This document shows positions 29,796 through 50,686 of a stretch of DNA of 64,000 nt, one piece after another. This DNA comes from an uncultured Dokdonia sp. (GTDB taxonomy: Bacteria; Bacteroidota; Bacteroidia; Flavobacteriales; Flavobacteriaceae), in the NCBI GenBank assembly GCA_947503305.1, contig CANNDF010000006.1:1-64000 (forward strand). The letters are read 5' to 3'. The notes below the pieces were generated by a model. The model saw nothing but the letters and a program-made list of their open reading frames with translations. It searched no databases and was not told where the DNA came from. Within the stretch, counting starts at the first letter, position 1. Every line of letters begins with the position of its first letter. The translations under genes were made by a program, and so were the position numbers.

Positions 29796-30686
29796 ATGAC
29801 AGATATCACAATACTTACGCAAAAGGCATATTTGAACCCTAAAAAAGTATCGCCTTATATTCAAAACATTCTGGATGAAAGAGTCTATTTACAACAAGCT
29901 CTTGAAAAAAAAGGATTGAGCGTGGATTGTGCATCTTGGGATGATCCTCATTATGATTGGTCACAAACAAGAGGGATTGTTTTTAGAACTATCTGGGATT
30001 ATTTTGAGCGGTATGAGGAGTTTTCGAGATGGTTAGATATGGTTCATACAAAAACGCAATTGATCAACCCTAAATCTCTTGTCGATTGGAATATAGATAA
30101 GCATTACTTAGCAGATCTGGAAGCTAGAGGTATTGCTATTGTTCCTACCGCTTTTGTAGATACAAGTGCTTATCGTTCTATAGAAGATGTTTGTAAAGAA
30201 AAAGGATGGACAGATGTCGTGATCAAACCTGCTATTGCAGGTGGCGCTTTTCATACGCATAAAGTATTACAATCTGAACGTAAGAACTATGAAAATCTTT
30301 TTAAAGAGCTAGTGGCTCAAAGAGATATGTTAATACAACCTTTTCAAGAGACGATACTATCATTAGGGGAAGCTTCTCTAATGGTTTTTAATGGAAAATA
30401 TACACACGCTATTCTTAAGAAAGCCAAGGCAGGCGACTATCGAGTACAAGATGATTTTGGAGGAACCGTACATGATTATAAAGCAAGTCCAGAGGAAATC
30501 ATCTTTGCAGAAAAAGTATTTAATGCATGTGAAACAATGCCTGCTTATGGAAGAGCTGATATTATATGGGATACAGAAGGTAATATTCTTTTGGGAGAAC
30601 TGGAAATTATAGAGCCAGAGCTATGGGTACGTAATTATCCAGAAAGTGCGCACGATTTTGCAGAGGGGATCATGACCTATTTATAA
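29796..30686 (+). CDS. ATP-grasp domain protein
   Basis: 296 aa. The pattern resembles RimK/glutathione-synthetase-like and DcsG-like ATP-grasp proteins: FRTIWDYFERYEEF, DVVIKPAIAGGAFHTH, MLIQPFQETI, and a metal-site end GRADIIWDTEGNILLGELEIIEPELW. It should join a carboxylate to an amine using ATP. The substrate is unknown. It follows the FAD oxidase by 35 bp and may be cotranscribed. Confidence 0.82.
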   Translation: MTDITILTQKAYLNPKKVSPYIQNILDERVYLQQALEKKGLSVDCASWDDPHYDWSQTRGIVFRTIWDYFERYEEFSRWLDMVHTKTQLINPKSLVDWNIDKHYLADLEARGIAIVPTAFVDTSAYRSIEDVCKEKGWTDVVIKPAIAGGAFHTHKVLQSERKNYENLFKELVAQRDMLIQPFQETILSLGEASLMVFNGKYTHAILKKAKAGDYRVQDDFGGTVHDYKASPEEIIFAEKVFNACETMPAYGRADIIWDTEGNILLGELEIIEPELWVRNYPESAHDFAEGIMTYL

Positions 30687-30798
30687 TTATTGGTCGAAAT
30701 TTAAAAACCATTCGTCGACACATAACCGTCATTCACCTACACTAAAAAACCATTAAACTAAAGAAAGCGGGTATATACAGTATAAATAATCATTTTTG
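30686..30798 (+). promoter_or_regulatory. LytTR-type promoter P1 of the H-NOX operon
   Basis: Similar 9-mers occur at exact 21-bp steps: CATTCGTCG (30709), CATTCACCT (30730) and CATTAAACT (30751), plus a weaker TATTGGTCG at 30688. A -7-like CATTTTTG begins at 30791, 40 bp after the last box. The 21-bp step equals the 9-bp half-site plus 12-bp spacer known for LytTR-domain regulators. It should drive the five-gene phosphorelay, including its own LytTR regulator. Confidence 0.78.
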
Positions 30799-30819
30799 TA
30801 TATTCTAAAAAATGGGGCA

Positions 30820-31239
30820 TTGAAATCAAATACATTAAAAATACTTCTTATTGAAGACGACCTTATTGAAGTCATGAAACTTAAAAGAGTAATCAAAACT
30901 TTAGAGTTATCACATACACTTATAGAGGCACAAAATGGAGAAGATGCTATAGAAATGCTACAGGATAGAGACAGTATAAGGCCTGATATTATTTTTTTAG
31001 ACCTTAACATGCCTAAGATTAATGGGATTGAATTTCTTAAGATAGTCAAGAGTGATGAATCTCTCAAATATATCCCTACGATTATCCTTACTACAAGTAA
31101 TAATAAAAAAGACCTTATAGAATGCTATAAAATAGGAATTGCAGGGTATATACTTAAACCTCTTAAGTATGAAATGTATCTAGATAAAATAGAAAAAACA
31201 CTCGCTTATTGGAGTGAAAACGAACTAATAAAAGTATAG
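30820..31239 (+). CDS. Single-domain response regulator (REC), first gene of H-NOX operon
   Basis: 139 aa from TTG at 30820. A TTG at 30796 would lie within the predicted -7 element, so I prefer the later one. Receiver features: acidic pair IEDD (residues 11-14), phosphoacceptor Asp61 in IIFLDLNMP, Thr in ILTTSNN and Lys in YILKPLK. There is no output domain, so it should act as an intermediate that passes phosphate on, or as a phosphate sink. The H-NOX gene starts directly after its stop codon. Confidence 0.9.
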   Translation: MKSNTLKILLIEDDLIEVMKLKRVIKTLELSHTLIEAQNGEDAIEMLQDRDSIRPDIIFLDLNMPKINGIEFLKIVKSDESLKYIPTIILTTSNNKKDLIECYKIGIAGYILKPLKYEMYLDKIEKTLAYWSENELIKV

Positions 31240-31782
31240 ATGAAAGGAATTGTATTTACAGAATTTTTAGAATTAGTAGAAGATAAATTTGGTCTAGAAA
31301 TGGCAGATACTATAATTCAAGAATCTAATCTTGAGTCAGGAGGAATTTATACAGCTATCGGTACTTATGATTTTTCTGAAATGCTTAACCTCCTCACAAG
31401 CCTAAGTAAGCATACAGATCTCTCTATAGATAATTTATTACTAGTGTATGCAGAGCATTTTTTTGGAGTGATAAAAAAGAGCTATCCGGGATTTTTAGAA
31501 CAGTATGATGACCCTATAGAAATGCTATCTTCTATAGAAAATCATATTCATGTAGAAGTACGTAAAATATATCCAGATGCAGAGCTACCTACATTTACAA
31601 CAGTAGAAAAAACAGAAAATACACTTGTAATGATTTATAGGTCTTCTAGGGCCATGTATAGTTTTGGAAGAGGGTTAATGAATAAAACTTTTGAGTATTT
31701 TAATGCAAAAGCCACTATCTTAGTTGAGAAACTAAAAGAAGATGGTACCGAAGTTAAGTTCAGTATAACCAGAGATGAGTGA
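31240..31782 (+). CDS. H-NOX haem-binding nitric oxide sensor
   Basis: 180 aa, standard length for a stand-alone bacterial H-NOX protein. It begins MKGIVFTEFLELVEDKFG, typical of the fold. The proximal haem ligand aligns with His104 in IHVEVRKIYPDAELP, and Pro117 follows. The haem-propionate clamp YxSxR is complete as YRSSR (Tyr133, Ser135, Arg137). H-NOX proteins bind NO through haem and modulate a partner kinase or cyclase. The start abuts the receiver stop, and its end overlaps the kinase start by 8 bp, so kinase regulation is very likely. Whether it also binds oxygen cannot be read from the sequence. Confidence 0.93.
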   Translation: MKGIVFTEFLELVEDKFGLEMADTIIQESNLESGGIYTAIGTYDFSEMLNLLTSLSKHTDLSIDNLLLVYAEHFFGVIKKSYPGFLEQYDDPIEMLSSIENHIHVEVRKIYPDAELPTFTTVEKTENTLVMIYRSSRAMYSFGRGLMNKTFEYFNAKATILVEKLKEDGTEVKFSITRDE

Positions 31783-33370
31783 TGACAAACTAAAAATCTA
31801 TGAACGTGCACTCGCACGTGAAAAAGCAGCCAGAAAACAAGCTGAAGAAATCTTAGAAGAAAAATCTAGAGAATTATTTTTCCTTGCCCAAGAGCTAAAA
31901 AAATCTAATGATAAACTAGAAAAACTTTTTAAGGAAACCACCTCAGAACTCAAAGGTGTTTTTGAAAACATTATAGATGCCTATGTCGTTATGAATCTCA
32001 ATGGGGAGGTTCTTAAAATGAATGAAGCTGCAGAAGTTTTATTTGGATATGATATTAAAAAGGAAAGCTTAAATGTGGTTTCCCTTATCCATAAAAAAGA
32101 TATTGCATATGCTATGCAATCGTATGAAGAACTTCTTAAAGAAGGTTTTTTTACAGATTATAAAGCACGAATATTTACAAAAAATAAAGAAGTGAAATGG
32201 GTACATATCAATGCAAGTTTAGTCTATAATGATGGAGGCATTCCTATAGCGGCTCAAGGAATTGTAAGAGACATAACAGAAGAAGAAGCCGATGCAGAAT
32301 TGATCAGAGAACAGCAAATAAAACTCTCTGCCATTGTAGACTATTCTAGTTTAGGAATTGTACTTACCCAAAATGGTAAAATATTACAAACCAATAAGGC
32401 AATACAGGAATTACTAGAATATTCTGAAGAAGAGCTATTGACAAAATCAGTGCAAGATATTTCTGTTAAAGAAGACTATCCAGCATCAAAAGTATATATG
32501 GATCAAATGAATAACAATACACTTGATCATTTTGTCATGAAAAAACGATATAAGAAAAAAAATGGAGCTGTCGTCTGGGCAAAAACAAATGTAACTGCTG
32601 TGCGTAATGAAGATACATCAATACGATATCAAGTAGCTCTTGTAGAGGATATTACAATTCAGCTAAAAAGCGAAAAAGAACGTAAATCATTACTCAAAAA
32701 ACTTGAAAAAAGTAATGAAGAATTACAAGAGTATGCGCATATTGTATCTCATGATTTAAAATCTCCTTTACGAAGTATCAATGCTCTTGTAAACTGGATA
32801 CAAGATGATAATAAAGACACACTTTCTGAAGATTCCAAACAATACTTAACCCTTATAGAAACTACTCTGGAAAAAATGGAACGCCTTATATCAGATGTAT
32901 TAGAGTATTCTAGTGTGACTTCAGAAAAAACAGATGAGCAAGAAGTAGATGTACATGAACTTATCAAAGATATACAGCAGTTGCTATATATTCCTGAACA
33001 TATCATATGTGTTGTCAAGCGTCAATTGCCTGTAATTAAATCAGATAGAGTAAGAGTGCAACAACTCTTTCAGAATATCATGAGTAATGCTGTGCGCTAT
33101 ATAGATAAAGAAAAAGGATTGATTGAAATAGATGTAGTTGAAAAAAGATCATTCTATCAATTTTCTGTAAGTGATAATGGAATAGGAATTGCAAAAGAAT
33201 ATTATGATAAGATATTCAAGATTTTTCAATCTTTAAACCAAAATAAAGCGTCTTCTGGGATAGGGCTTTCTATTGTAAAAAAAATCGTAGATTCCTATGG
33301 AGGTGATATATGGTTAAGTAGTAAAGAAGGTATAGGTACAACATTTTATTTTACCCTTCCCAAAAAGTAA
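31775..33370 (+). CDS. PAS-PAS histidine kinase, partner of H-NOX
   Basis: 531 aa, soluble. A charged coiled coil (about 5-60, EREKAARKQAEEILEEKS-like) precedes two PAS domains (about 65-180 and 185-300). The H-box is VSHDLKSPLRSI (His about 327), with N-box FQNIMSNAVRYI, VSDNGIGI and SSGIGLSIVKK. It has no membrane helix and no receiver, so it should respond to the cytosolic H-NOX protein and pass phosphate to the separate receiver or LytTR regulator. Confidence 0.93.
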   Translation: MSDDKLKIYERALAREKAARKQAEEILEEKSRELFFLAQELKKSNDKLEKLFKETTSELKGVFENIIDAYVVMNLNGEVLKMNEAAEVLFGYDIKKESLNVVSLIHKKDIAYAMQSYEELLKEGFFTDYKARIFTKNKEVKWVHINASLVYNDGGIPIAAQGIVRDITEEEADAELIREQQIKLSAIVDYSSLGIVLTQNGKILQTNKAIQELLEYSEEELLTKSVQDISVKEDYPASKVYMDQMNNNTLDHFVMKKRYKKKNGAVVWAKTNVTAVRNEDTSIRYQVALVEDITIQLKSEKERKSLLKKLEKSNEELQEYAHIVSHDLKSPLRSINALVNWIQDDNKDTLSEDSKQYLTLIETTLEKMERLISDVLEYSSVTSEKTDEQEVDVHELIKDIQQLLYIPEHIICVVKRQLPVIKSDRVRVQQLFQNIMSNAVRYIDKEKGLIEIDVVEKRSFYQFSVSDNGIGIAKEYYDKIFKIFQSLNQNKASSGIGLSIVKKIVDSYGGDIWLSSKEGIGTTFYFTLPKK

Positions 33371-33403
33371 TTATAGGTGATTTATAAACCCAATAGATAA
33401 AAG

Positions 33404-33721
33404 ATGGAAATCCCTAATACAACATATATAGATCAGTTAGCAGGTGATGATCACGTGTTTAAAGAAAAGCTTATCAAGATCTTAAAAAAAGAATTCCCTC
33501 AGGAAATATTGAACTATGAAAATAATATAAAAGCAAAAGCTTTTATAAAAGCCGCAAAAAATGTTCATAAACTTAAACATAAATTTGGTATTTTAGGACT
33601 TGAAAAGGGGTATACTATTGCCATAGAATATGAAGAAAATCTAAAAATAGCATCGACCCAATTACAATCAGAATTTGATGATATTCTCCAACGTGCAAAT
33701 ACATTTGTACAAAGCTTATAA
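33404..33721 (+). CDS. Histidine phosphotransfer (Hpt) protein
   Basis: 105 aa, all-helical. The phosphotransfer motif is VHKLKHKFGILGLE, aligned to the usual HxLKGxAxxxG, giving His55 as the acceptor. It lies between the kinase and the LytTR regulator and supplies the intermediate step of a multi-step relay. Confidence 0.88.
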   Translation: MEIPNTTYIDQLAGDDHVFKEKLIKILKKEFPQEILNYENNIKAKAFIKAAKNVHKLKHKFGILGLEKGYTIAIEYEENLKIASTQLQSEFDDILQRANTFVQSL

Positions 33722-33742
33722 CTAACCTATAAAAACTAAAGT

Positions 33743-34459
33743 TTGAATTGTATACTAATTGATGATGAGGCTGCAGCTAGAGCTATTATTGCGCATTTAT
33801 GTAGTCAAGTAGAAACGATTACTGTTCTAGAAGAATTTCCAAATGCCATTGAGGCTATGAAATTTTTAAATAAAAATATGGTAGACTTAATTTTTTTAGA
33901 TATCCATATGCCTGATTTTACAGGATTTGATTTTATAGAAACCCTCAAAAATCCACCTAAAATAGTACTTACTACTTCTGATGTGAACTTTGCGATAGAA
34001 GCTTTTGAATACGAGTGTATCGTAGACTATCTTGTAAAACCTATAGGAATGCCTCGATTTATGAAAGCCATTCAAAAAGTAGAGAGCTCTGGTTTTTCAT
34101 CTTCAAAAGCAATATCAGAAAGCTCTCAAACCACATCTTCATCTTCAGAAAAAGAAATGTATGTCAATATAGATAGAAGACTTATAAAGATTGAGTTTGA
34201 AAAAATATACCTGATCGAGGCCAAAGGAGATTATATTCTCATTAAAACCGAAGACAAGAAGTATACAGTACACTCTACTCTTAAAAAAATTGAAGAAAAA
34301 TTACCAGATAGTCTTTTCTTAAAGGTACATAGATCTTATATAATTAATATCAAAAAAATCATTGATATCGAGGACAATAGTGTACTTATCGCAAGAGATG
34401 TTATTCCTATTAGTAGATCTAATCGTCCAGAGCTTATGAAGCGATTAAATCTTTTGTAA
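33743..34459 (+). CDS. LytTR family response regulator (REC-LytTR)
   Basis: 238 aa from TTG at 33743. The receiver has IDDE near the start and phosphoacceptor Asp53 in IFLDIHMPDF, then LTTS and LVKPIG. After a Ser-rich linker (about 115-135) comes a LytTR DNA-binding domain (about 138-238) with IYLIEAKGDYILIKT, FLKVHRSYIINIKKI and ISRSNRPELMKRL. It is the only LytTR gene in the window. The LytTR-type boxes found at five nearby promoters are therefore its natural targets, including the promoter of its own operon. Confidence 0.93.
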   Translation: MNCILIDDEAAARAIIAHLCSQVETITVLEEFPNAIEAMKFLNKNMVDLIFLDIHMPDFTGFDFIETLKNPPKIVLTTSDVNFAIEAFEYECIVDYLVKPIGMPRFMKAIQKVESSGFSSSKAISESSQTTSSSSEKEMYVNIDRRLIKIEFEKIYLIEAKGDYILIKTEDKKYTVHSTLKKIEEKLPDSLFLKVHRSYIINIKKIIDIEDNSVLIARDVIPISRSNRPELMKRLNLL

Positions 34460-34525
34460 GAAATTCAGTTAAAGGGATATATATGTTTTTAAGTACGCTT
34501 TTGCCAAAGCGTATCATTATCAAAA

Positions 34526-34616
34526 ACCCTTCGTCGATTCCATAATACCATTCGTCTACACATAAAAAGCACTTACCGAATTTTAAAAAATAACAGGTTT
34601 CTCCCCTCTACATTTG
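34526..34616 (+). promoter_or_regulatory. LytTR-type promoter P2 of the T9SS-secreted protein gene
   Basis: Boxes at 34528 (CCTTCGTCG), 34549 (CATTCGTCT) and 34570 (CACTTACCG) are exactly 21 bp apart. The -7 element TACATTTG (a full TAnnTTTG match) is at 34609, 39 bp after the third box. A short leader leads to the ATG at 34638. A degenerate copy of the dispersed palindrome (GCTTTTGCCAAAGC) lies just upstream at 34497. Confidence 0.8.
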
Positions 34617-34637
34617 GGGTATATAAACAAAGAGACC

Positions 34638-37187
34638 ATGAAAAAATTACTATTCTATGTTGTGCTACTAGTAACAACGATAACAAATGCTCAGGACATC
34701 CCTTTTAATTGTGATTACAGCGCTTACCTATTTCAATTTAATGATGTATATGCGATAGATCTTGCCTCAGGGAATTCATTTCTAGTAGCATCAGATGTTA
34801 CGCCAGGAAATATAAATGCAGCTGCTTATAACCCTACAGACGGTTATATCTGGGGATCTTTGACAAGCCCTGCAAAATCAATTGTACGTATAGGTAAAAA
34901 CTTTACGACGACTACGTTTTATATTGATGAATTACCTACTAGTAACAGGTATGTAGGCGGGATCAGTGCAGAAGGAGTGTATTATCTCAAAGGAGGTGGG
35001 ACTACGTACTATAAAATAGATTTAGATCCAGAATCCCCTACCTACGGAGAACATCTAGCTACGGAGAATTTATCCCAGAATATCAATAACCATGATTGGG
35101 CATTTAATGCTGTAGATGGTAACTTATACACTGTAGAAAAGAACACCAACGTATTGTATCGTGTTGATCCTTCAAATGGAATCGTACAATCCCTAGGAGA
35201 AGTACCTATATTATCAGGATTAAATTATACATATGGAGCTGTTTATTTTGATGTTTCTGGACGCTTTTATGTATCTGCAAATCAGACAGGGACTATCTAT
35301 GTAATCCAAAGTGTACAAGATTTAGATGGTACGAATGCCATGGAATCCAATTTTTTTGCTTTTGGGCCTTCAAGCTCAAGTAATGATGGAGCCCGATGTC
35401 CTACAGCATCTGTGCCTCAAGAGATTTGTGATAATGGTATCGATGATGATGGAGATGGTCTTATAGACTGTGAAGACCCTTCATGCTCTGGATACGGAGA
35501 TTGTGAAGTTATAGAAGAACCTACTTCTGGAGGGAATGACGGGGGATTAGAAAGTAATAACAGGCTCTCTGATGCCATTAATAAAAGAAACTATAATCGT
35601 GCAAAAAATAATTATACATTTAATAGAGCCACAGCAAGACGAGTTGAAAAGACCGCTGCTTATGGTCAAAAAAATGGACTTACTTCGTTTCAATTAGAAG
35701 ACTTTATTCCTCTTAATGTGATAGAAGAAGATTATGTAGTTGAGTCTACTCCAACAGACCTTGTCGCGATAACAAATGCTACCGAAGTTTATGCTGTCGA
35801 TTATATACGTAACCAGATGGGGATTGCCTCTATTCTAGCATTAAAAACCGAAGGAGGTGTATACGAACATACAAAATACATCTGTGATCGCATGCTAGGA
35901 GGGGAGTTAATAGCTGTTTCTACAATAGATATTAGAGATCAGACCTTTATAAAATCACTTATACGGAATATAGATGGTACCGTAGAATTTGTTCTGAGCC
36001 TTTCGGCGAAAGTAGTCAATGATGAGGAAAATTTTTCTGTAGAAAGCCATTGGAATCTGGATCAATATGAGAGTGGAGTTACTTTTTATAACTTCCAGAT
36101 TTGGTCAAATTCTATAGATAACTTATACGAATTAGGAGAAGAAGTCTTGGATTTATTAGAGATAGAAAAACCAATCATAGCGTATAATAACTCAAGTCCC
36201 CCTACTGTCTTTGTAAAAAAAGGCAACTATGAAAATGGCGCATTGAATTTACAAATTATAAATACTAACGGGACTCAGCAGGTTTCTTTTGATGCGGGAA
36301 TACGAGCTACAGAAACTAGTGAGATTGAAGATATGACAACTACCATTGATTTAAATGGTGATTATATCACCTATACAACAATAGATACAGGGCATTTGTT
36401 TGATATAGGGTTTAGAATAGGTGATGGAATTGCCATTCCTGATGATCTGTTTCTATCTGATGGTCCGTGGGGGATAGATGACAGCCAGGAAAATACAATC
36501 GTTCAGGAATATGCTGTGTCTCCTAATTCTATACTTTTTGAAGAAGAAGATCTTCCTATAGAAAGGAACATTGCATTAGAAGCAACAACCAGTAGTTATG
36601 TAGGGGTCTACCGTGCATTAACTCCTCGATTTCAAGCGGTAGATGTCACAGGTTATTCTTACTTTACATTAAAAGCCAAAGGAACGGGAAACCTAAACGT
36701 CACTTTTGTGAAAAAAAGTATTGATGTATGGGAAGATCAATACACTACTACTATTGCATTAACTAATGACTTTCAGGAATTCAATATCCCGATAGAAGAA
36801 GTAATTATGGATGATATAGTAACGATTGTATTTACCATGGTATCAGAAAATGGGACATTACAAACAAAGCAAATGAATCTAGAAGATCTTCGGTTTTCAA
36901 ATACAGAAACATTGTCAACAAGCTCTTTTGAAACAACAACTATAGGAGTGGTTAATTATCCAAACCCATTTACACAACATACGATAATCCGACTTCCAGA
37001 GAGTATCCAGTCAGTAATGATTAAGGTATATGATATGACGGGTCGTTTAATAGATCAACAACAACTAGAAACACAAGGGCGACAAATAGTAAGCTATAAC
37101 GCACCACAATTACGTATGGGAATATATCCATATGTAATAGAAGATAGAAATAAACAACAGTATATAGGAAGATTCATAATTCGGTAG
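34638..37187 (+). CDS. Secreted T9SS protein with beta-propeller-like N-terminus
   Basis: 849 aa from ATG 34638; the upstream TTG at 34614 overlaps the -7 element and is rejected. The signal peptide is about 1-18 (ends TNAQ). Residues ~25-260 show repeating YAIDLASGN, YKIDLDPES, YRVDPSNG units, a propeller-like domain. EICDNGIDDDGDGLIDCEDPS near 275 is a calcium-binding-type motif often seen in surface proteins. A central region of unknown type follows, then a galactose-binding-like sandwich (about 620-760) and a type A sorting domain (NYPNPFTQHT to the end). It is the first target gene after the LytTR regulator and may be a matrix or adhesion protein. Confidence 0.8.
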   Translation: MKKLLFYVVLLVTTITNAQDIPFNCDYSAYLFQFNDVYAIDLASGNSFLVASDVTPGNINAAAYNPTDGYIWGSLTSPAKSIVRIGKNFTTTTFYIDELPTSNRYVGGISAEGVYYLKGGGTTYYKIDLDPESPTYGEHLATENLSQNINNHDWAFNAVDGNLYTVEKNTNVLYRVDPSNGIVQSLGEVPILSGLNYTYGAVYFDVSGRFYVSANQTGTIYVIQSVQDLDGTNAMESNFFAFGPSSSSNDGARCPTASVPQEICDNGIDDDGDGLIDCEDPSCSGYGDCEVIEEPTSGGNDGGLESNNRLSDAINKRNYNRAKNNYTFNRATARRVEKTAAYGQKNGLTSFQLEDFIPLNVIEEDYVVESTPTDLVAITNATEVYAVDYIRNQMGIASILALKTEGGVYEHTKYICDRMLGGELIAVSTIDIRDQTFIKSLIRNIDGTVEFVLSLSAKVVNDEENFSVESHWNLDQYESGVTFYNFQIWSNSIDNLYELGEEVLDLLEIEKPIIAYNNSSPPTVFVKKGNYENGALNLQIINTNGTQQVSFDAGIRATETSEIEDMTTTIDLNGDYITYTTIDTGHLFDIGFRIGDGIAIPDDLFLSDGPWGIDDSQENTIVQEYAVSPNSILFEEEDLPIERNIALEATTSSYVGVYRALTPRFQAVDVTGYSYFTLKAKGTGNLNVTFVKKSIDVWEDQYTTTIALTNDFQEFNIPIEEVIMDDIVTIVFTMVSENGTLQTKQMNLEDLRFSNTETLSTSSFETTTIGVVNYPNPFTQHTIIRLPESIQSVMIKVYDMTGRLIDQQQLETQGRQIVSYNAPQLRMGIYPYVIEDRNKQQYIGRFIIR

Positions 37188-37221
37188 TTGATTTTTTAAG
37201 ATTGGGTAGTTTTTTTGAATG

Positions 37222-37250
37222 CCACTCTCGGAGACGGGAGTGGTTTCTTG
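37222..37250 (+). terminator. Rho-independent terminator
   Basis: CCACTCTC pairs with GGGAGTGG (one T-G pair) around the loop GGAGAC, followed by TTTCTTG. It ends the transcription unit of the T9SS protein gene. Confidence 0.8.
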
Positions 37251-37349
37251 TTTACTATATTTAAATATTCATATTGTGTGTTATTAAATTACGATGCAAC
37301 TTTTATATGTATATATGCGTCTATATAGATATAAACTAAATTTCTTGTT

Positions 37350-38447: not shown

Positions 38448-38472
38448 AGAATTTAGAAGATTATTTATTACT

Positions 38473-40476: not shown

Positions 40477-40807
40477 GTCCTTAATTTTATGAGTACAAGT
40501 TATGTGTGGAAGCCGCATTTTTAATCTACAGTGGTACTACCACTCATCGAAAGCAAACCGTATTTCAAGGAACTTCGAATAGGAGAAAAGGCAAATAAGT
40601 GTGTAGAGCATGATTAAAATATGGTTTATAATCCTCTAATTAGTAGTTGATTAATAGTTATTTAGTAGTGCAATGATCTTATATGAATTATTGGTTTATA
40701 GATCGAGAATGTCCATTCATCTACACTAAAAGACCGTCTATCGAAAATCAATCCAGAGGCAACCTTTCTACCCTGATATTTGTCACAGAATTAAAAACCA
40801 AACGATT
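40477..40807. promoter_or_regulatory. 331-bp divergent intergenic region with LytTR promoter P3
   Basis: No gene fits here. Rightward boxes CATTCATCT (40714) and CGTCTATCG (40735) are 21 bp apart. A -7-like GATATTTG begins at 40775, 40 bp after the second box, ahead of the gene at 40808. For the leftward exporter gene there is a perfect inverted repeat AGTGGTA-C-TACCACT (40530-40544) and, next to it, a weak box-like CACTCATCG (40541). Shared control of both directions is plausible but only the rightward side is convincing. Confidence 0.72.
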
Positions 40808-40936
40808 ATGGAATTTACAGTAATACGCAATCAAAGCTATTTAAAAGTAGTACGATCTATTAAAAAAGAAACAGTAAGTAAATCCTTAGAAGTGGTTTAT
40901 AAAAAACAGGAAACACCTGTAATATATTTAAGATAA
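40808..40936 (+). CDS. Small protein, 42 aa, first gene behind LytTR promoter P3
   Basis: An ATG at 40808 opens a 42-codon frame (MEFTVIRNQSYLKV ... TPVIYLR) ending at 40936. It lies about 18 nt after the expected transcription start of P3 and 22 bp before the next gene, so its position suits a real small gene. It is basic, without a membrane helix. I know no family. It could instead be an untranslated leader. Confidence 0.5.
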   Translation: MEFTVIRNQSYLKVVRSIKKETVSKSLEVVYKKQETPVIYLR

Positions 40937-40958
40937 ATAACTCATAAAAATAATTAAT

Positions 40959-41255
40959 ATGGCAACTTATATCAGAGAAATAGATTCTGTCTATTGTATC
41001 AAAGGGACACATCAATCCAATCAAACAAGCGCTTTACAAACACATATTTCTTATTTATTAAAACAAGAGGAACGTGTACTTATAAATCTTTGCGAACTTG
41101 ATGATGAGAACGGAGATGTACTTAGAATGTTAGAAGATTTAAAAATGACATTAGAAGATGAAGATCGCTTACATTTTTATGGATATACGCAAGAATCTGA
41201 TCCAGTAGTCATACGATCTCTTGGACATACATTTTCGTATAACCTAGCCGCATAA
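40959..41255 (+). CDS. Small STAS-like protein, tentative
   Basis: 98 aa. The layout resembles a STAS (anti-sigma antagonist) domain: an early strand SVYCIKG, a helix LQTHISYLLKQ, a strand RVLINLCELD, the loop-helix ENGDVLRMLEDLKMTL and a strand RLHFYGYTQ. The usual phospho-Ser loop (DSSG) is replaced by ENGD. The gene overlaps no neighbour but is 6 bp from the flippase start. In other bacteria STAS proteins switch exopolysaccharide production, which would suit this place. The assignment is a pattern guess. Confidence 0.45.
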   Translation: MATYIREIDSVYCIKGTHQSNQTSALQTHISYLLKQEERVLINLCELDDENGDVLRMLEDLKMTLEDEDRLHFYGYTQESDPVVIRSLGHTFSYNLAA

Positions 41256-41261
41256 TTGATT

Positions 41262-42494
41262 ATGGTAATTGCATTACAAAAGTGGAGTGAACGAATTTCT
41301 CCAGAGCAATGGTTTATGATAAGTGCCTTTGTCGTAAACGGAGGTAATTATCTATACAATCTATTACTAGGTAGGATTTTAGGGCCAGCACAATTTGCAG
41401 ATGCTGCAATATTGATCACCTTATTACTCGTGCTTTCTTTTGTAGCAATGACATTTCAACTCACGGTAGCCAAGTTTGCATTACATTTTGAAGGAGATTT
41501 TCATCATCAATTTATAAAAAGAGTATATAACCTCTCTATAGGTATAGGAATAGGGCTAGGGTGTATTGTTATTGCATGTGCTTCTAGATTACAGCATATT
41601 TTTCATACACAATCGTATGGGATATTTATCATTTTTGGAATAGCAACCCCTTTATATTTTTTAATGAGTGTCAATAGAGGAAGGTGGCAAGGTAACTCGT
41701 CTTTCACCCCGTTGTCAATGACGTATCAATTTGAAATGATTACGCGCCTTGCCATTACCCTTCTATGCATTCTTATTTTTAGAGAAACACCAACAATAGG
41801 AGTTGCAGTAGGAATGGCATGTTCTTTTATTGCAGGAATGTTTCCTTTCAAAAAGTATTCTTTCAAAAGGATTACTACAATAAAGCTTCCTGCCAAAGAT
41901 CAGAAACTACTGTTGCATTTCTTTTTATACACTGCATTTTATGAACTTACCCAGATCATATGTAACAACAGTGACATCTTATTAGTAAAGCACTTTTTTC
42001 CAGATCATGAATCAGGGTTATACGCTTCTTTAGCACTTATAGGACGTGTTGTTTACTTTGTAACATGGATGTTTGTGATGCTACTACTTCCTAAGGTAAT
42101 AGCCAAGAAAAAAAATAATGAAGACACAAATGCTGTACTGATGAAGTATTGTAGTTATGTAATTGTTTTTGCTACTGCTGTAGTTCTAGGATCTTTTCTT
42201 TTTCCAGAGATGGCTGTTAGTATGCTATTTGGAGATGCGTATATTGCTATAGCACCTCTTTTAGGATGGTATGCTCTTGCGACATCATTATTTGCGCTAT
42301 CTAATATTTTTGTCTATTACTTTCTATCGCTAGACACCTACTTGCCTGTCTATATAGGAGCATTAGGTGGGATATTACAAATAGTGCTCATTTACTTTTT
42401 TCATGAAAATTTATATCAAGTCGTATACATGCAAATCCTTGCTATGGGATTGCTGTGTATAGTGCAAACTAGTTACTACTATAAAAACGTATAA
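41262..42494 (+). CDS. Wzx-like polysaccharide flippase (MOP superfamily)
   Basis: 410 aa from ATG 41262; a TTG two codons earlier is less likely. About 10-12 membrane helices are predicted. The N-terminus FVVNGGNYLYNLLLGRILGPAQFADAA matches the polysaccharide biosynthesis/O-antigen flippase pattern, and a second half starts FYELTQIICNNSDILLVKHFF. It should move lipid-linked oligosaccharide across the inner membrane. It belongs to the P3 unit. Confidence 0.85.
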   Translation: MVIALQKWSERISPEQWFMISAFVVNGGNYLYNLLLGRILGPAQFADAAILITLLLVLSFVAMTFQLTVAKFALHFEGDFHHQFIKRVYNLSIGIGIGLGCIVIACASRLQHIFHTQSYGIFIIFGIATPLYFLMSVNRGRWQGNSSFTPLSMTYQFEMITRLAITLLCILIFRETPTIGVAVGMACSFIAGMFPFKKYSFKRITTIKLPAKDQKLLLHFFLYTAFYELTQIICNNSDILLVKHFFPDHESGLYASLALIGRVVYFVTWMFVMLLLPKVIAKKKNNEDTNAVLMKYCSYVIVFATAVVLGSFLFPEMAVSMLFGDAYIAIAPLLGWYALATSLFALSNIFVYYFLSLDTYLPVYIGALGGILQIVLIYFFHENLYQVVYMQILAMGLLCIVQTSYYYKNV

Positions 42495-42586
42495 AATGTT
42501 CATCTAACGTAAATTACCGTTCGTCTATAGTAAATTAACAATGAACGGTGTATCTCTTTTTTTGTCTGTAATGTATCTCATATTTG
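42495..42586 (+). promoter_or_regulatory. LytTR-type promoter P4 of the GT4 gene
   Basis: Two 21-mers in tandem start at 42495 and 42516; the second includes ACCGTTCGT, an exact match to the published LytTR half-site consensus. Box starts are 42497 (TGTTCATCT) and 42518 (CGTTCGTCT). An inverted half-site TGAACGGT lies at 42542-42549. The -7-like CATATTTG begins at 42579, 61 bp after the second box and 40 bp after the third register position. This is the clearest box pair of the window. Confidence 0.85.
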
Positions 42587-42612
42587 CTACAGAAATATAA
42601 AAACAACCCATT

Positions 42613-43815
42613 ATGAAACTAGCTATAGTTACCGCATATCCTCCAAGTAAAATCACATTGACTGAATATGCATATCATCTCGTAAAACATTTTAGACAAC
42701 ATCAAGAAGTCACAGAACTTATTTTACTTACAGATGTTTCTGCTGGACAAGCAGATGTTTATTTTAAAGAGCAAGGCTGTTATATCCGTGTGATACAATG
42801 TTGGAAATTCAATAATTATTTTAATGTGCTTTCTATTGCCAAAACATTGAAAAAAGTAAAAGCAGATAGTGTCTTGTATAATTTACAGTTCATGAAGTTT
42901 GGAGATAAAAAAATACCAGCAGCTTTAGGACTTTTCTCTCCATGGATCTCAAAATGCATGAAAATATCTACGGTAGTATTATTACATAATATTATGGAAA
43001 CAGTAGACCTTAGTAGTGCGGGTTTTACAAACAATAAATTAAAAAAGAAAGTATATACTGCTATTGGAGAAGTTCTTACACGTATTGTTCTAAAAGCAGA
43101 TGTAGTTGCGGTCACTATTAGTAAATATGCAGAGATTTTACGACAAAAATATGATAGTACAAACTGTGTATTAATTCCTCATGGAACGTTTGAAATTCCA
43201 GAAGAACCATCCTATGAACTTTCAGAAGGTCCTTTAAAAGTAATGACTTTTGGAAAGTTTGGAACCTATAAAAAAGTCGAGATATTAATAGAAGCCGTAG
43301 AAAAAGTAAGAGCACAGACAAGTCGTGAAATTGAGCTTGTGATAGCTGGAACTGATAACCCGAATACAAAAGGATATTTGGAACTAGTACAAAAACGATA
43401 TACACATGTTCCTGATATTACTTTTACAGGTTACGTACAAGAAGAAGATGTTGCTACTATTTTCTCAGAAAGTGCAATGGTAGTATTTCCATATACATCA
43501 ACCACAGGAAGCTCGGGAGTATTACATCAAGCTGGAAGCTATGGAAAAGCAGTGGTTATGCCTGACTTAGGTGATCTAAGTATTCTTGTAAAAGATGAGG
43601 AATATCGTGGTGAATTTTTTGAACCAGAAAATGTAAATAGCCTTGCCAAAGCAATTAAAAAACTAGTCATCGATGAGTCACATAGAACTACGATTGCCAA
43701 AGCAAATTATAAAGCCGCTACAGCATTGCCTATGAGTGTTATTACAAAGATGTACTTAGAGACATTTGAATATATAAAACAGAAAGAAAAAGAATCATTA
43801 CCAATGGTTGCCTAA
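42613..43815 (+). CDS. GT4-type glycosyltransferase
   Basis: 400 aa GT-B protein. The C-terminal donor domain has MTFGKFGTYKKVEILIEAV, LVIAGTDNPNTKGYL, ITFTGYVQEEDVATIF and the E-rich end FPYTSTTGSSGVLHQAGSYGK. The N-terminus begins KLAIVTAYPPSK. It should add a sugar to the growing repeat unit. It has its own LytTR promoter and ends 1 bp before the convergent hydrolase gene. Confidence 0.88.
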   Translation: MKLAIVTAYPPSKITLTEYAYHLVKHFRQHQEVTELILLTDVSAGQADVYFKEQGCYIRVIQCWKFNNYFNVLSIAKTLKKVKADSVLYNLQFMKFGDKKIPAALGLFSPWISKCMKISTVVLLHNIMETVDLSSAGFTNNKLKKKVYTAIGEVLTRIVLKADVVAVTISKYAEILRQKYDSTNCVLIPHGTFEIPEEPSYELSEGPLKVMTFGKFGTYKKVEILIEAVEKVRAQTSREIELVIAGTDNPNTKGYLELVQKRYTHVPDITFTGYVQEEDVATIFSESAMVVFPYTSTTGSSGVLHQAGSYGKAVVMPDLGDLSILVKDEEYRGEFFEPENVNSLAKAIKKLVIDESHRTTIAKANYKAATALPMSVITKMYLETFEYIKQKEKESLPMVA

Positions 43816-43816
43816 A

Positions 43817-45328: not shown

Positions 45329-46566
45329 TTCAGAGATGTCTTTATAGTTTTTGTAAGACCTAATGTTTCTATACCCAGTTGTAATGGGCCTTCAGGAAAC
45401 TGCTCTTTAGGAAAAGAGAAAGATACGATTCCGTTTTCTGATAATTGCGTAATAGGCTCTTGTGATTCTTCGATATAAAGCTTGACATCGATACCATCTT
45501 GAATGATCTGGCCTAGATAACTGGTCAAAGGACCTATTGTAATCTCTCGCCCATCTTCAGAAAGTGTGGTAGGAATTTCTTGTAGAACAGATAAAAACGT
45601 AATAGTGAATTCTTCACTTTGAGCAATTCCTTCAATACTACTTTTTATAGTCCAAGTAGAAGGGATTTGAGGATGTAACGCTTTCGCGAAAGCATACCCA
45701 TTACGACTAATCCCGGTAGTTTCCCAATATCGATTATTGGAGTCTCTTATATGAAAGGTTACTAAAGTACCATCTGTAATAATATTGTCATTTTGATCTT
45801 TTATTTGTGAAGTGCCAAATGTCATAAGCTCATTTCCATCTGCAAAAGAATGGGTTCTTGTAACATCCATGGTATAGTCTGTAGCGATATCTGGAAATAT
45901 ATCAATAACTCTTTCCTTTGAAGCAATAGTTCCTAGGGTTGCTCCTGTACTTATTCTACCCGTCATAAGAGGAGCAGGAATACGTTGCCAAGCAATATTA
46001 TGAGTGATCAATTTTTTGGTATTTTGAATACGATCTCTGAATTGGGTTTTTAAAAAAACCTTAGTGCTATCTGGGATCATATTGTCAAGGTGATCAGTAG
46101 GAATACTTACCATCATACTGTAATCTCTAAGATTTGCATTAATACTTCGTGGGCCTACATAATTTTCTATAGTTCCTAAATGCGTGGTATCTGATGAGAT
46201 ATATAGACTTCCTCGATCTAATATCTCTCCATTTTGAATATGTTTCCAATCTAGATACCCTGCTCTACGGGTATATGTTTTAGGAATTATATAGATTACT
46301 TCCTCATTTTTGATAGAGGCTTCTATAAGGGTAGTTCCGTATGATCCGTGTATAAATAGTACTCCGTTTTCACTAGATGTTGTAGGTAGATCGGATACGA
46401 GTTTAAAGCGTATTTCTTGTCCAGCAAAAAGGGGACCTTTTGGAATACTAAGACGAGATACGATAGAACGCACCGCCTCGGGGGTTTTTTGAAAAGCAAC
46501 TAGGACATATGAAATGCTTAGTAAAGCCAAACAGATACTGATGATATGGATTTTTTTTAATGTCAT
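45325..46566 (-). CDS. Periplasmic Ig-like multi-domain protein, unknown function
   Basis: 413 aa. A signal or anchor helix lies at 1-25. The rest is beta-rich with several invasin/Ig-like stretches, for example AGQEIRFKLVSDLPT, LVTFHIRDSNNRYWETTG and DGIDVKLYIEES. It is held between the PTPS-related membrane protein and the hydrolase with 4-bp overlaps on both sides, so it probably works with them. I do not recognise a named family. A palindrome (45680) encodes AFAKA. Confidence 0.6.
   Translation of the reverse strand: MTLKKIHIISICLALLSISYVLVAFQKTPEAVRSIVSRLSIPKGPLFAGQEIRFKLVSDLPTTSSENGVLFIHGSYGTTLIEASIKNEEVIYIIPKTYTRRAGYLDWKHIQNGEILDRGSLYISSDTTHLGTIENYVGPRSINANLRDYSMMVSIPTDHLDNMIPDSTKVFLKTQFRDRIQNTKKLITHNIAWQRIPAPLMTGRISTGATLGTIASKERVIDIFPDIATDYTMDVTRTHSFADGNELMTFGTSQIKDQNDNIITDGTLVTFHIRDSNNRYWETTGISRNGYAFAKALHPQIPSTWTIKSSIEGIAQSEEFTITFLSVLQEIPTTLSEDGREITIGPLTSYLGQIIQDGIDVKLYIEESQEPITQLSENGIVSFSFPKEQFPEGPLQLGIETLGLTKTIKTSLN
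45680..45693. repeat. Dispersed 14-bp palindrome, copy 8 (in Ig-like protein gene)
   Basis: Perfect GCTTTCGCGAAAGC, read on the minus strand as AFAKA. Confidence 0.95.
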
Positions 46567-49500
46567 TCTAATGGATTACCAATGTACACATTTGGTTTAA
46601 TTTTAAGATATGCATATTGAGGATGTATAATTTTTATTTTGTCATAGTCTGTGATTGCCTGTTTGCGGTTGGGAATTACTTTGGAAGCAATAGCACTATT
46701 GGGAAGACCATTGACAGCTACATTTTCCAACCCTTCTGAAATCACCTTGAAAGGAGCTTTCTCAAGTATATCTATTTTAAAAAGGGTTTTATGTTGTTGA
46801 CGTACACTCGTATCTATATAGGTTGCGTCTACCCACAGAATCTCGTCAGTAGTATTGTAATAGGTGACTAGCAACTGAGGAATTGTAGCAGCTTGAATAC
46901 TGGTATTACTTAAAGTGCCAGATACTATATGATCACTAACTTCAGTCATGGAGAGACCTACGGGTTGATATAAATCTGTAGTTGCTACGTTTGCCGTTAC
47001 TTGTAAATTAAATGTGCTGGGTATCTCATCTAAAGTAACTCCTGTAAAGGCATTAGGGTCAAAACGTGTCGGCTTTTGATCAGAATTTTTTGACCAGGCA
47101 ATATCTTCAAAATTTATTCTAAAAGGGGTGGTTTCTTTAGGTAAGAGCTTATGTTTGATAATATCTTTTGCATTAAATTGAGCAAGGGAGATATCATCTT
47201 TAGTATAAAGATTTCCTGTTACAGAAATATCTGCGGGGACATTATCTACATTTTGGATTTCTCCTACAATCACATATATAGAGTCCTTTTTTAGTAACCG
47301 AGCAGATAATACCTCAACAACGGGCTGTTTAAGTACATCTTCATGATAGGTATGTCCAGAGGTGATTTTGCGTTTACCATGATTATAAAAAGAGATGCTA
47401 TTTTCTGAAAAAAATTGATCAGGCGGAATATCAGGATCTATTGCTTTGGGCTTGATATACCATTTTTTATCGATCAAGTTTAGGTCAAGAATTTCAGAAG
47501 TGGTAATTACTTTTAAAGGTGTAACCCATGTAGCGGTAATCGATGCTTTGGCTGTTATTTTTGTTTGCTCAGATATTGTAATATCCATTGCATCCAGTTT
47601 TGCATAGGAACTTAAAAGCCCATCAGATACTGAAATTTCTAACATAAACTGAGAGATGTTTTTTTGACTTGTAGGATCTATATATGCATGTGCTCTCTCA
47701 AACTCTTTATAATCCATGGCGTCATAATAAGCTTTGACCACATTTTCTGGACTAATTTGAGTGGCATTTTTTATATAAAACGTATAGAGACCATAAAAAC
47801 AAATACCTACTATAAGAAAAGCCCAGCTTATAGAGCTTGTATAAAGAAGCTTTGATTCTTTAGTAGGGTCGGGTTGAAAACGGAAATATATTGGTATATG
47901 TTTTGAAATTGATTGGAAAGATTTTGACCATAGCGATTGGAGATATATAAGAAATACACATAGTATCGTAAGCATAGGAATAATACCCCATAATAATTTT
48001 TGAAAAAGAGGAATGTCATCTTTGGGGAGTAACGTAGGTAACGGAGTAACTCCTGCTTTTTCCCAAACCATAATTCCGTTCTCCAGTTTACTTAATCGAT
48101 GCCAGCCCGTAAAGTATAAAAGAGGATCATAAAACTTATCATTTGAAAAAACGTATTTTAAGTGATATTTTTCTGGTACAGTTAGAAACTGTTGTAAAGA
48201 GCCTATCCCTTCTATTCCTCTATATTTTGAATTTTCTAGCCGTTCTACAGCCCTGGAGGTAAGCTCAGGAAGACGTCTGGCAGAATGATAATTTCCATCT
48301 ACAGTAGTCGCATTGGTTTGTGTAGAGAGCCATGCCATTTGATCTCCAAAGCCCAAAGGTAAATACCGCCATTTATCATGGTCATCTTCATTTAAAAAAT
48401 TGATGATAGGTAGCATATTAATTGCCTTAGGTTGTGAAGGTCTATACTTACCTAAAGTAATTGTAAAAATGGCGCTAAAAATAAATATACTTGCTAGAAT
48501 ACCCCCAATAATTCTATGATGATAAGGGCCCCATTTTGATTGTAAATATTTTTTGAAATCACCTTCTACAAAACGATAGCAAAATTCACCAAATACAGGT
48601 AGCGCCATAATCGATGCCCATAGTGTAAAACGATCCAGAGTCAGTATGTTAAATGCATTTTCTCCTAATAGCTTTAATGGGATGGGAGTTGTTCCTCCGG
48701 TTCCAAGAATAAATAAAAGAGTAAATGAAATTCCAAAAAATAATAACCGTTTGCTATAATATCTATAAAAAATGTAAGGCATTATAAATAAAAGGATACC
48801 CCAAGGGATGATGAAAAACACAAGTCCAGATGAGGTGACTTCTAGAAAATTATCTCTCGATCCGTGAGGTATAGGGACTTGAGTTATTGGATTCTCTTTT
48901 GTATTGATCCAATAAGGCAATATACACCCTATAATGAGAATCAGTGAAGATACCCCAAATAGTATAATGCGTAAGAGATGTTTTTTTAATGCTTTCGCGA
49001 AAGCAAAAAATGTTACTTCTCTAGAAGAAGTAACTCTCTCTCTTGCGGTATCCATAGTAACCATTCCTATAAGAGGAAAAATAAAAAAGACCATTCCAAA
49101 AATAGGAGTTACATGATGTGATGTTACAGTAACAGCAAGTAAACAAAGCCCTTTTATAAGATGAAAATGCTTACCTACTTTAATCCAAAGATAGATATCT
49201 GGTAGCGCATGCATTAAAACAGCAATGCCTATAATACTAGGGAGTTGACCAAAAATATGTAGTGTTTCTACAAATGAAGAAGAGAATACAGCAAGGATGG
49301 ATGCAAATCCAGCTATTTTTTTATTTGGAATGAGCACTTGAGTAAAACGATATACCCCAGTAATAAATAAAATGATTCCTAATAATGCCACCGTAAATAA
49401 CCCAAATTTGAGGCCTCCTATAGATGAAAGCGCTCCAATACTTTGATGTACAAGAGGGGGATATCCCATAACTGTAAACCCCGTATACCAACTATAATTC

Positions 49501-49658
49501 CAAGGTTCAAACCAACTGGTAGCGTAGTGATTTGCAAAAAACAAATGTATTAGAGCATCATATGTCTTTTCTAATGTAAAAAACATAGAGGTCCCATGGA
49601 AGATAATTCCTAATAGTACAGCTGTGATGAGATGTTTATTTGTTTTTGACTGATTCAT
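46563..49658 (-). CDS. Giant PTPS-related membrane protein, possible glycan polymerase or transferase
   Basis: 1031 aa. About 12 membrane helices lie in residues 1-420, with early HLFFANHYATSWFEPWNYSWY and VMGYPPLVHQ typical of the 6-pyruvoyl-tetrahydropterin-synthase-related membrane family, which resembles GT-C transferases. A soluble segment (about 440-560), two more helices (about 565-590 and 640-660) and a beta-rich periplasmic tail (about 670-1031) follow. It is the first of three coupled genes and divergent from a GT2 gene across promoter P5. A role as lipid-linked sugar transferase or polymerase is an inference. A palindrome (48991) encodes AFAKA. Confidence 0.75.
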   Translation of the reverse strand: MNQSKTNKHLITAVLLGIIFHGTSMFFTLEKTYDALIHLFFANHYATSWFEPWNYSWYTGFTVMGYPPLVHQSIGALSSIGGLKFGLFTVALLGIILFITGVYRFTQVLIPNKKIAGFASILAVFSSSFVETLHIFGQLPSIIGIAVLMHALPDIYLWIKVGKHFHLIKGLCLLAVTVTSHHVTPIFGMVFFIFPLIGMVTMDTARERVTSSREVTFFAFAKALKKHLLRIILFGVSSLILIIGCILPYWINTKENPITQVPIPHGSRDNFLEVTSSGLVFFIIPWGILLFIMPYIFYRYYSKRLLFFGISFTLLFILGTGGTTPIPLKLLGENAFNILTLDRFTLWASIMALPVFGEFCYRFVEGDFKKYLQSKWGPYHHRIIGGILASIFIFSAIFTITLGKYRPSQPKAINMLPIINFLNEDDHDKWRYLPLGFGDQMAWLSTQTNATTVDGNYHSARRLPELTSRAVERLENSKYRGIEGIGSLQQFLTVPEKYHLKYVFSNDKFYDPLLYFTGWHRLSKLENGIMVWEKAGVTPLPTLLPKDDIPLFQKLLWGIIPMLTILCVFLIYLQSLWSKSFQSISKHIPIYFRFQPDPTKESKLLYTSSISWAFLIVGICFYGLYTFYIKNATQISPENVVKAYYDAMDYKEFERAHAYIDPTSQKNISQFMLEISVSDGLLSSYAKLDAMDITISEQTKITAKASITATWVTPLKVITTSEILDLNLIDKKWYIKPKAIDPDIPPDQFFSENSISFYNHGKRKITSGHTYHEDVLKQPVVEVLSARLLKKDSIYVIVGEIQNVDNVPADISVTGNLYTKDDISLAQFNAKDIIKHKLLPKETTPFRINFEDIAWSKNSDQKPTRFDPNAFTGVTLDEIPSTFNLQVTANVATTDLYQPVGLSMTEVSDHIVSGTLSNTSIQAATIPQLLVTYYNTTDEILWVDATYIDTSVRQQHKTLFKIDILEKAPFKVISEGLENVAVNGLPNSAIASKVIPNRKQAITDYDKIKIIHPQYAYLKIKPNVYIGNPLE
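48991..49004. repeat. Dispersed 14-bp palindrome, copy 9 (in PTPS-related gene)
   Basis: Perfect GCTTTCGCGAAAGC, read on the minus strand as AFAKA in a cytoplasmic loop. Confidence 0.95.
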
Positions 49659-49702
49659 AATGTATTAAATCGATAATATTTCAGATCTATTCAAAGATAA
49701 TT

Positions 49703-49804
49703 CATTCGACGAATGACCCGTCCTTCGATGAATGATTCTGGTCGACACAAATCGCCCATCCGACGAAAATCAACATATTTTGATGCGTGCCAGGGATATG
49801 TTTG
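49703..49804. promoter_or_regulatory. Divergent LytTR-type promoter P5
   Basis: Rightward: box-like positions 49715, 49736 (TTCTGGTCG) and 49757 (CATCCGACG) keep the 21-bp step but are weaker. A full -7 TATGTTTG begins at 49797, 40 bp after the last box. Leftward: clear boxes CATTCATCG and CATTCGTCG read on the minus strand at 49734-49726 and 49715-49707, 19 bp apart. Both divergent glycan units could therefore answer to the same regulator. Confidence 0.68.
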
Positions 49805-50661: not shown

Positions 50662-50686
50662 TCCTTTCATGTAAACTTTTTTAACT

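Follow-up and report, generated by a model that had tools for sequence, protein, structure and literature searches.

Phased LytTR-type repeat arrays as the predicted operator set of an H-NOX-linked surface-polysaccharide regulon in Dokdonia

The first 64,000 nucleotides of contig CANNDF010000006.1 from an uncultured Dokdonia sp. (assembly GCA_947503305.1; this stretch, positions 1–64,000, is referred to as the window) contain five promoters preceded by direct repeats with a 21-bp period. Judged by sequence comparison, these arrays are real and conserved, and they form a local regulon's set of LytTR-type operators, to which a LytTR protein is predicted to bind. The proposed binder is the LytTR response regulator encoded at 33743–34459 (+; Asp53; PF04397 and PF00072), which lies beside genes for a receiver protein, an H-NOX protein, a histidine kinase, and an Hpt-like phosphotransfer protein. 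We put the probability at roughly 0.78 that the arrays are the operators of this regulator and that it forms the end of an H-NOX-linked phosphorelay switching a local surface-polysaccharide regulon.

A previous sequence-only reading of the window had listed repeated 9-mers upstream of the genes starting at 30820, 34638, 40808, 42613, and 49840, and all of them are present. The array of the receiver/H-NOX operon (30709–30759, +) comprises boxes at 30709 (CATTCGTCG) and 30730 (CATTCACCT) and a weak third box at 30751 (CATTAAACT), with a further weak box upstream at 30688. The array of the surface-protein gene (34528–34578, +) has boxes at 34528 (CCTTCGTCG) and 34549 (CATTCGTCT) and a weak one at 34570 (CACTTACCG). 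Two shorter arrays follow: one at 40714–40743 (+), with a strong box at 40714 (CATTCATCT) and a weak box at 40735 (CGTCTATCG), and one at 42497–42526 (+), with a weak box at 42497 (TGTTCATCT), a strong box at 42518 (CGTTCGTCT), and no recognisable box in the next register, 42539. The fifth and weak array (49736–49765, +; boxes 49736, TTCTGGTCG, and 49757, CATCCGACG) starts 107 bp upstream of gene 49840. When scored with a unit matrix derived from relatives, the boxes at 30709, 30730, 34549, 40714, and 42518 reach 20.4–27.6, those at 34528, 49736, and 49757 reach 6.8–8.6, and those at 40735, 30751, 42497, and 34570 score 3.5, 2.4, 2.4, and −0.8. By these scores, four promoters carry one or two strong boxes each, and the 49840 promoter carries two weak ones.

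A two-unit array matrix was trained on 68 promoters of relatives, with the window left out, and compared with a null of 4 Mb of first-order Markov sequence. The five window arrays score 57.8, 35.4, 25.1, 20.6, and 13.6, and the null maximum is 10.7. The array of gene 49840 is the weakest of the five, since its three-unit score of 6.4 falls slightly under the corresponding null maximum of 7.6 (E 0.03 per window). Seven window boxes had seeded the matrix that located the training promoters, which makes this comparison only partly independent; those of the 49840 array belonged to neither the seed nor the training set. A motif-free lag test was therefore added. Across 75 regions upstream of the receiver gene in relatives, self-identity is highest at lag 21 (z = 6.6). 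At this lag, 28 of the regions contain a 20-nt stretch that matches itself at 15/20 or better, compared with no more than one region at any other lag between 9 and 45 and no more than one in each of 100 shuffles.

The arrays were also said to occur nowhere else in the window, which holds, as the next distinct site with the two-unit matrix scores 5.1 at 40538. The unit at this site (TACCACTCATCGAAAGCAAA) has a single-unit E of 0.16 and was rejected as an array. The box at 42516 does match the published half-site [TA][AC][CA]GTTN[AG][TG] exactly, as had been claimed, but this pattern has 59 matches in the window and is uninformative alone; relatives mostly carry A at its G position. A sixth candidate promoter, formed by minus-strand CATTCRTCG-like boxes at 49704–49735 facing gene 46563–49658 (−), was rejected for its 19-bp spacing, and among the 12 relatives' stretches with an orthologue of this gene, none has a minus-strand array scoring above 9 just upstream of it. 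Between the two divergent genes, at 49703–49735, the window has a palindrome, CATTCGACGAATG, and, at a distance of 19 bp, a second box on the minus strand.

Each array is followed at a fixed distance by an element resembling the TAnnTTTG −7 element. These elements lie at 30791–30798 (CATTTTTG), 34609–34616 (TACATTTG), 40775–40782 (GATATTTG), 42579–42586 (CATATTTG), and 49797–49804 (TATGTTTG), all on the plus strand, with exact TAnnTTTG at 34609 and 49797 only. The proposed distance of 39–40 bp from the last register is borne out at 40, 39, 40, 40, and 40 bp; the first of these runs from the third box start and is a fixed distance in relatives. For the 42613 promoter, however, the 40 bp count from position 42539, which had not been listed and holds no box, and the distance from the last real box, 42518, is 61 bp. 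All five window arrays thus have a −7-like element at 39–40 or 60–62 bp, the longer distance amounting to one additional unit. The same preference is seen in relatives, in which 132 of 228 arrays have nAnnTTTG at 39, 40, 60, 61, or 62 bp after the C of the second unit. When these five offsets are displaced by other amounts, the count averages 1.0 and never exceeds 4, and the 150 bp upstream of the arrays contain 70 nAnnTTTG matches, with no more than three at any one position.

The −7 element spans −12 to −5 of the promoter in the description drawn on here (PMC9723704), which places the proximal 9-mer register at about −52 to −44. This is close to where repeats are described in LytTR regulatory systems (LRS), in which they tend to sit 10 bp upstream of −35 and to activate (PMC6193735). 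The earlier designation of the five promoters as activated has this geometry, with repeats shortly upstream of the core promoter as in the LytTR regulatory operons covered by that source, as its one line of support. The accompanying proposal that they lack a normal −33 element fared less well. TTG is indeed sparse: 119 promoters have 21 occurrences in all at the nine offsets between −28 and −20 relative to the start of the −7 element. At 254 TAnnTTTG sites without an array in the same loci, which may include chance matches, TTG is however rarer still per site (27, with a peak at −34 in 17 of 254). An absent −33 element was therefore rejected as the mark of a promoter class.

Conservation was assessed in 80 loci around orthologues of the LytTR regulator with 66–81% identity, most from entries titled with flavobacterial genera and three titled Cytophagaceae or Bacteroidetes bacterium. 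Gene order around the regulator is largely retained, and 68 of the 80 loci have an array 90–140 bp upstream of the receiver gene. Among the remaining 12, two contigs start inside the gene (L064, L065) and three loci lack a real receiver orthologue (L085, L122, L133; 26–30% identity), leaving seven true misses at the array threshold (L097, L104, L107, L111, L118, L127, L134). The unit consensus is approximately TACCATTCRTCKACACTTAA. All 68 promoters have C10 and A12 (numbering from 0) in their first unit; the unit nearest the promoter is less strict, with CGAAA as a frequent ending.

Together with the window, these loci hold 249 arrays scoring above 10. The genes downstream encode the receiver (75), DUF6923-related proteins (46), a group-1 glycosyltransferase (GT1; 25), a family-2 glycosyltransferase (GT2; 3), two small-protein groups (28 and 10), another small group (11), and flippase-like proteins (10), with lipoprotein-like and UDP-sugar-dehydrogenase-like genes (5 each, named by eye), 15 singletons, and 16 cases with no clear gene. 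Arrays precede the UDP-sugar-dehydrogenase-like genes at L104:13163, L108:5070(−), L111:13384, L121:5033(−), and L129:5037(−), which hints at a uronic-acid-containing polymer. At L106:10873(−) and L174:857(−), the gene for a tetratricopeptide repeat (TPR) protein is inverted; the array stays beside its start and points away, with no clear downstream gene, so the array may also serve the TPR gene.

Across the family, the arrays track the orthologue of the 33743 regulator. A survey of 199 genomes of the family, with arrays called at no more than one mismatch and LytTR orthologues at E 1e-60, found the array in 62, the LytTR orthologue in 83, and H-NOX in 78. Array and LytTR orthologue occur together in 58 of the 62 array genomes (Fisher 3e-25), array and H-NOX in 55 genomes (9e-23), and H-NOX and LytTR orthologue in 73 of the 78 H-NOX genomes (9e-37). 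Of the array places, 67 of 83, including the window's two, lie within 25 kb of a LytTR orthologue. Four genomes (G005, G062, G115, G129) have an array near the orthologue and no H-NOX found (G062 is 84% and G005 90% complete), suggesting that the array follows the regulator rather than the sensor. With the 80 relatives' loci and this co-occurrence with a single LytTR orthologue, the view of these elements as LytTR boxes in a fixed promoter geometry is strongly supported. Among 192 genomes drawn class-wide from outside the family, only two have a LytTR relative at the 1e-55 threshold, with 43% identity, and the H-NOX/LytTR/array system seems, from these surveys, to belong to Flavobacteriaceae.

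Within the Dokdonia genome itself, the whole-genome scan was run as a pattern search, and the result did not go against the proposed array: all four tandem places with 0–2 mismatches fall in the cluster. With up to three mismatches, a range at which the pattern still misses the weak 49736 array, there are 14 tandem places, seven in the cluster and seven elsewhere, equal to the seven of the reversed-pattern control; the seven three-mismatch places outside the cluster score at most 4.0 with the matrix. Single units with 0–1 mismatch lie inside the cluster in four of five places, and those with up to three mismatches number 90, with 66 in the reversed control. When 13 single-unit places outside the cluster (1–2 mismatches) and four of the seven tandem places were scored, two were slightly above 10.7 (L167, 12.9, and L155, 11.1), both inside stop-to-stop frames of 72–182 codons. 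The genome has 31 LytTR matches, and a scan of 30 LytTR loci with 1.5 kb per side found an array at the 33743 locus only.

The predicted relay operon begins with a receiver-only response regulator (30820–31239, +; Asp61; PF00072), followed by the H-NOX haem NO-binding protein (NO, nitric oxide; 31240–31782, +; PF07700, 1.9e-38), a PAS-PAS histidine kinase (31775–33370, +; His326), the Hpt-like protein (33404–33721, +; His55; Pfam Hpt 23.2 bits, under the cut-off of 24.6), and the LytTR regulator. The H-NOX domain carries His104, which we take to be the haem-ligand histidine, and a YxSxR sequence at 133–137, presumably the H-NOX motif; a histidine kinase adjoins it, and the relay residues are intact. 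In relatives, conservation is at least 95% for receiver Asp61 (78 relatives), H-NOX His104 and Y133/S135/R137 (77), kinase His326 (79 best matches), Hpt His55 (80), and LytTR Asp53 (77–80).

The most likely order of phosphotransfer would run from the H-NOX-modulated kinase at 31775 to the receiver at 30820, the Hpt-like protein at 33404, and the LytTR regulator. Two or three 21-bp units, spaced by two helical turns, would place LytTR protomers on one face of the DNA, with the proximal register about 44–52 bp ahead of the transcription start of a sigma-A-type promoter bearing the TAnnTTTG-like −7 element. Bound LytTR would then recruit RNA polymerase. The operon of the regulator itself would thereby be under autoregulation, and a surface protein of the type IX secretion system (T9SS) and a polysaccharide-type cluster would be turned on. 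NO may be the signal and, by analogy with Vibrio fischeri, may lower the output.

Beyond the receiver operon, the array promoters face four units, all on the plus strand. The surface protein (34638–37187) has DUF6923 and a T9SS sorting tail. The second unit (40808–42494) holds a short open reading frame (40808–40936), a small protein (40959–41255), and a membrane protein (41256–42494) that appears flippase-like by eye. The GT1 gene lies at 42613–43815 (Pfam), and the last unit (49840–51661) joins the GT2 gene (49840–50661) to one for a phosphomannose-isomerase-type protein (50687–51661). Genes for a beta-lactamase-family protein and a TPR protein weakly resembling PgaA also lie downstream of the relay operon. 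The short frame encodes 42 amino acids, begins at the customary distance from the 40714 array, and is followed by the 98-amino-acid protein (window 40808–41255); because many relatives have one small protein straight after the array, it may be a remnant or a real first gene. The flippase-like, small, 413-amino-acid, and 1031-amino-acid proteins have no significant Pfam match even at a relaxed threshold. The product of the cluster is probably an exopolysaccharide.

The link between relay and sugar genes draws on the GT2 gene, as relatives fuse receiver domains to its orthologues. The window gene itself has no receiver, and its orthologue in relatives is often a receiver-GT2 fusion. Pfam searches of eight relatives' proteins found both domains in six (L177:828–2006, L182:3154–4338, L184:15049–16233, L173:6920–8134, L178:17872–19071, and L181:4074–5216), which are orthologous to 49840 by position (L181 unsure), the receiver alone in L190, and GT2 alone in L172. 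On tblastn and the overlap of open frames alone, L180, L183, L185, L187, and L188 look fused too, and L172, L174, L080, and L100 are unfused as in the window. Of the 12 relatives' stretches covering the region, 10 have an array starting 102–109 bp upstream of the GT2 orthologue; L174 has a weak array at 127 bp, and L172 has none over threshold. The domain arrangement suggests that the fusion may place a polysaccharide enzyme under direct phospho-control, as a second, post-translational output of the relay. No paper on receiver-glycosyltransferase proteins was found among the matches listed.

Several observations weigh against the proposed LytTR-controlled regulon. The proximal registers in the window are mostly weak, and position 42539 has no box at all (−17.2 with the unit matrix). 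In relatives, 96 of the 228 arrays lack nAnnTTTG at the fixed distances. In the family survey, four of the 62 array genomes have no LytTR orthologue, 16 of the 83 array places lie more than 25 kb away, on a different contig, or in a genome lacking the orthologue, and 25 of the 83 LytTR-positive genomes show no array at up to one mismatch. Outside the family, the pattern matches 19 of 192 genomes and the reversed control 8 of 192, so a pattern match alone is not specific. The counts from relatives' loci are not independent and are not probabilities, since relatives share ancestry. Some of the gene labels are weak too: neither the small protein nor the flippase-like one has a significant Pfam match or an NCBIfam match, and the NCBIfam scores of the TPR (export-porin) protein and both glycosyltransferases are far under cut-off.

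Three other explanations have to be considered alongside an activating LytTR operator. The arrays could be repressor sites, with the relay lifting or imposing repression. CoxC, a LytTR repressor whose three repeats overlap the −35 box (PMC11347149), offers a precedent, and in aligned promoters the proximal 21-bp unit reaches about the −33 region; the proximal 9-mer, however, ends about 10 bp upstream of −33, much as in the activating LRS operons described in PMC6193735, where the repeats lie about 10 bp upstream of −35. Repression is accordingly an unlikely mode of action, with perhaps a little more to recommend it than the idea that a different protein occupies the sites.

In that second alternative, another LytTR protein or a non-LytTR protein would bind the arrays, and their linkage to 33743 would reflect a co-inherited cluster. 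The 31 LytTR matches in the genome provide other candidates, and co-occurrence cannot fully separate binding from co-inheritance. Direct repeats of about 21 bp are nonetheless the usual form of LytTR sites in the cited work (PMC4847170, PMC11347149), only the 33743 locus has an array among the 30 host LytTR loci scanned, and the array stays with the LytTR orthologue in the four genomes where no H-NOX was found, all of which makes a different binder improbable. A repeat without regulatory function, or a chance similarity, might be suspected from the weakness of several boxes and the commonness of the published half-site; array scores beyond the null maximum, the peak at lag 21, the constant spacing to the −7 element together with its displaced-offset control, and the conservation speak against chance and leave this the most remote of the three by far.

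Compared with known systems, the arrays share the repeat form of LytTR direct-repeat operators. As described for AgrA, YpdB, HdrR/BrsR, RcoM, and CoxC, such operators consist of 9–11-nt repeats, 11–13 nt apart (a period of about 21 bp, as found here), near the promoter (PMC4847170, PMC6193735, PMC11347149); autoregulation is described for LRS and three-repeat operators for RcoM1 and CoxC. The Dokdonia arrays differ in their core, CATTCRTC, set in an almost full-length unit of 20 nt, in having a Bacteroidota-type −7 element, and in comprising five linked promoters that share an array conserved over many species. LRS likewise combine a LytTR protein with mostly 12-bp-spaced repeats and positive autoregulation, as described in PMC6193735, but they pair LytTR with an inhibitory membrane protein (PMC11347149). 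The five genes here depart from that layout, a membrane inhibitor and no kinase relay, in that they encode a receiver, H-NOX, a kinase, an Hpt-like protein, and a receiver-LytTR regulator.

A second point of comparison is the HnoX-HahK-SypF(Hpt)-SypG pathway of V. fischeri, which likewise combines an H-NOX gene adjoining that of a kinase with an Hpt step, a response regulator, and a polysaccharide locus. As described in PMC12369376 and PMC8738867, HnoX inhibits HahK, which acts via the Hpt protein SypF (and LuxU) on the polysaccharide locus. The Dokdonia system differs in its LytTR output regulator, in the receiver-only protein and free Hpt encoded in its operon, in the placement of sensor, relay, and targets in one cluster, and in the receiver-glycosyltransferase fusions of relatives. 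Neither a GGDEF cyclase nor a PilZ receptor, as expected of a cyclic di-GMP (c-di-GMP) route, was matched in the Dokdonia genome at E 0.001 (PF00990 and PF07238; among 14 genomes, the controls gave matches in 8 and 5). None of the open-access literature matches listed is a paper on H-NOX combined with LytTR control in Bacteroidota.

The individual parts are of known kinds, and what appears new is the combination of H-NOX, a receiver/Hpt relay, LytTR, phased arrays at several units of a surface-polysaccharide-type cluster, and receiver-GT2 fusions without detectable GGDEF or PilZ. For a Bacteroidota LytTR regulator, the arrays provide a specific, conserved operator with a defined promoter geometry. 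They also connect this operator with an NO sensor and with a cluster of the surface-polysaccharide type, in a genome where neither GGDEF nor PilZ was matched. A broader interpretation, which we offer tentatively and rate somewhat below an even chance, is that a self-contained, NO-responsive relay bypasses c-di-GMP and controls surface polysaccharide at two levels, at transcription through the LytTR arrays and at enzyme activity through the receiver-GT2 fusion of many relatives, whose receiver would have been lost or never gained in the species of the window. Such a two-level relay would give Bacteroidota an equivalent of the Vibrio H-NOX/syp pathway that uses other output parts.

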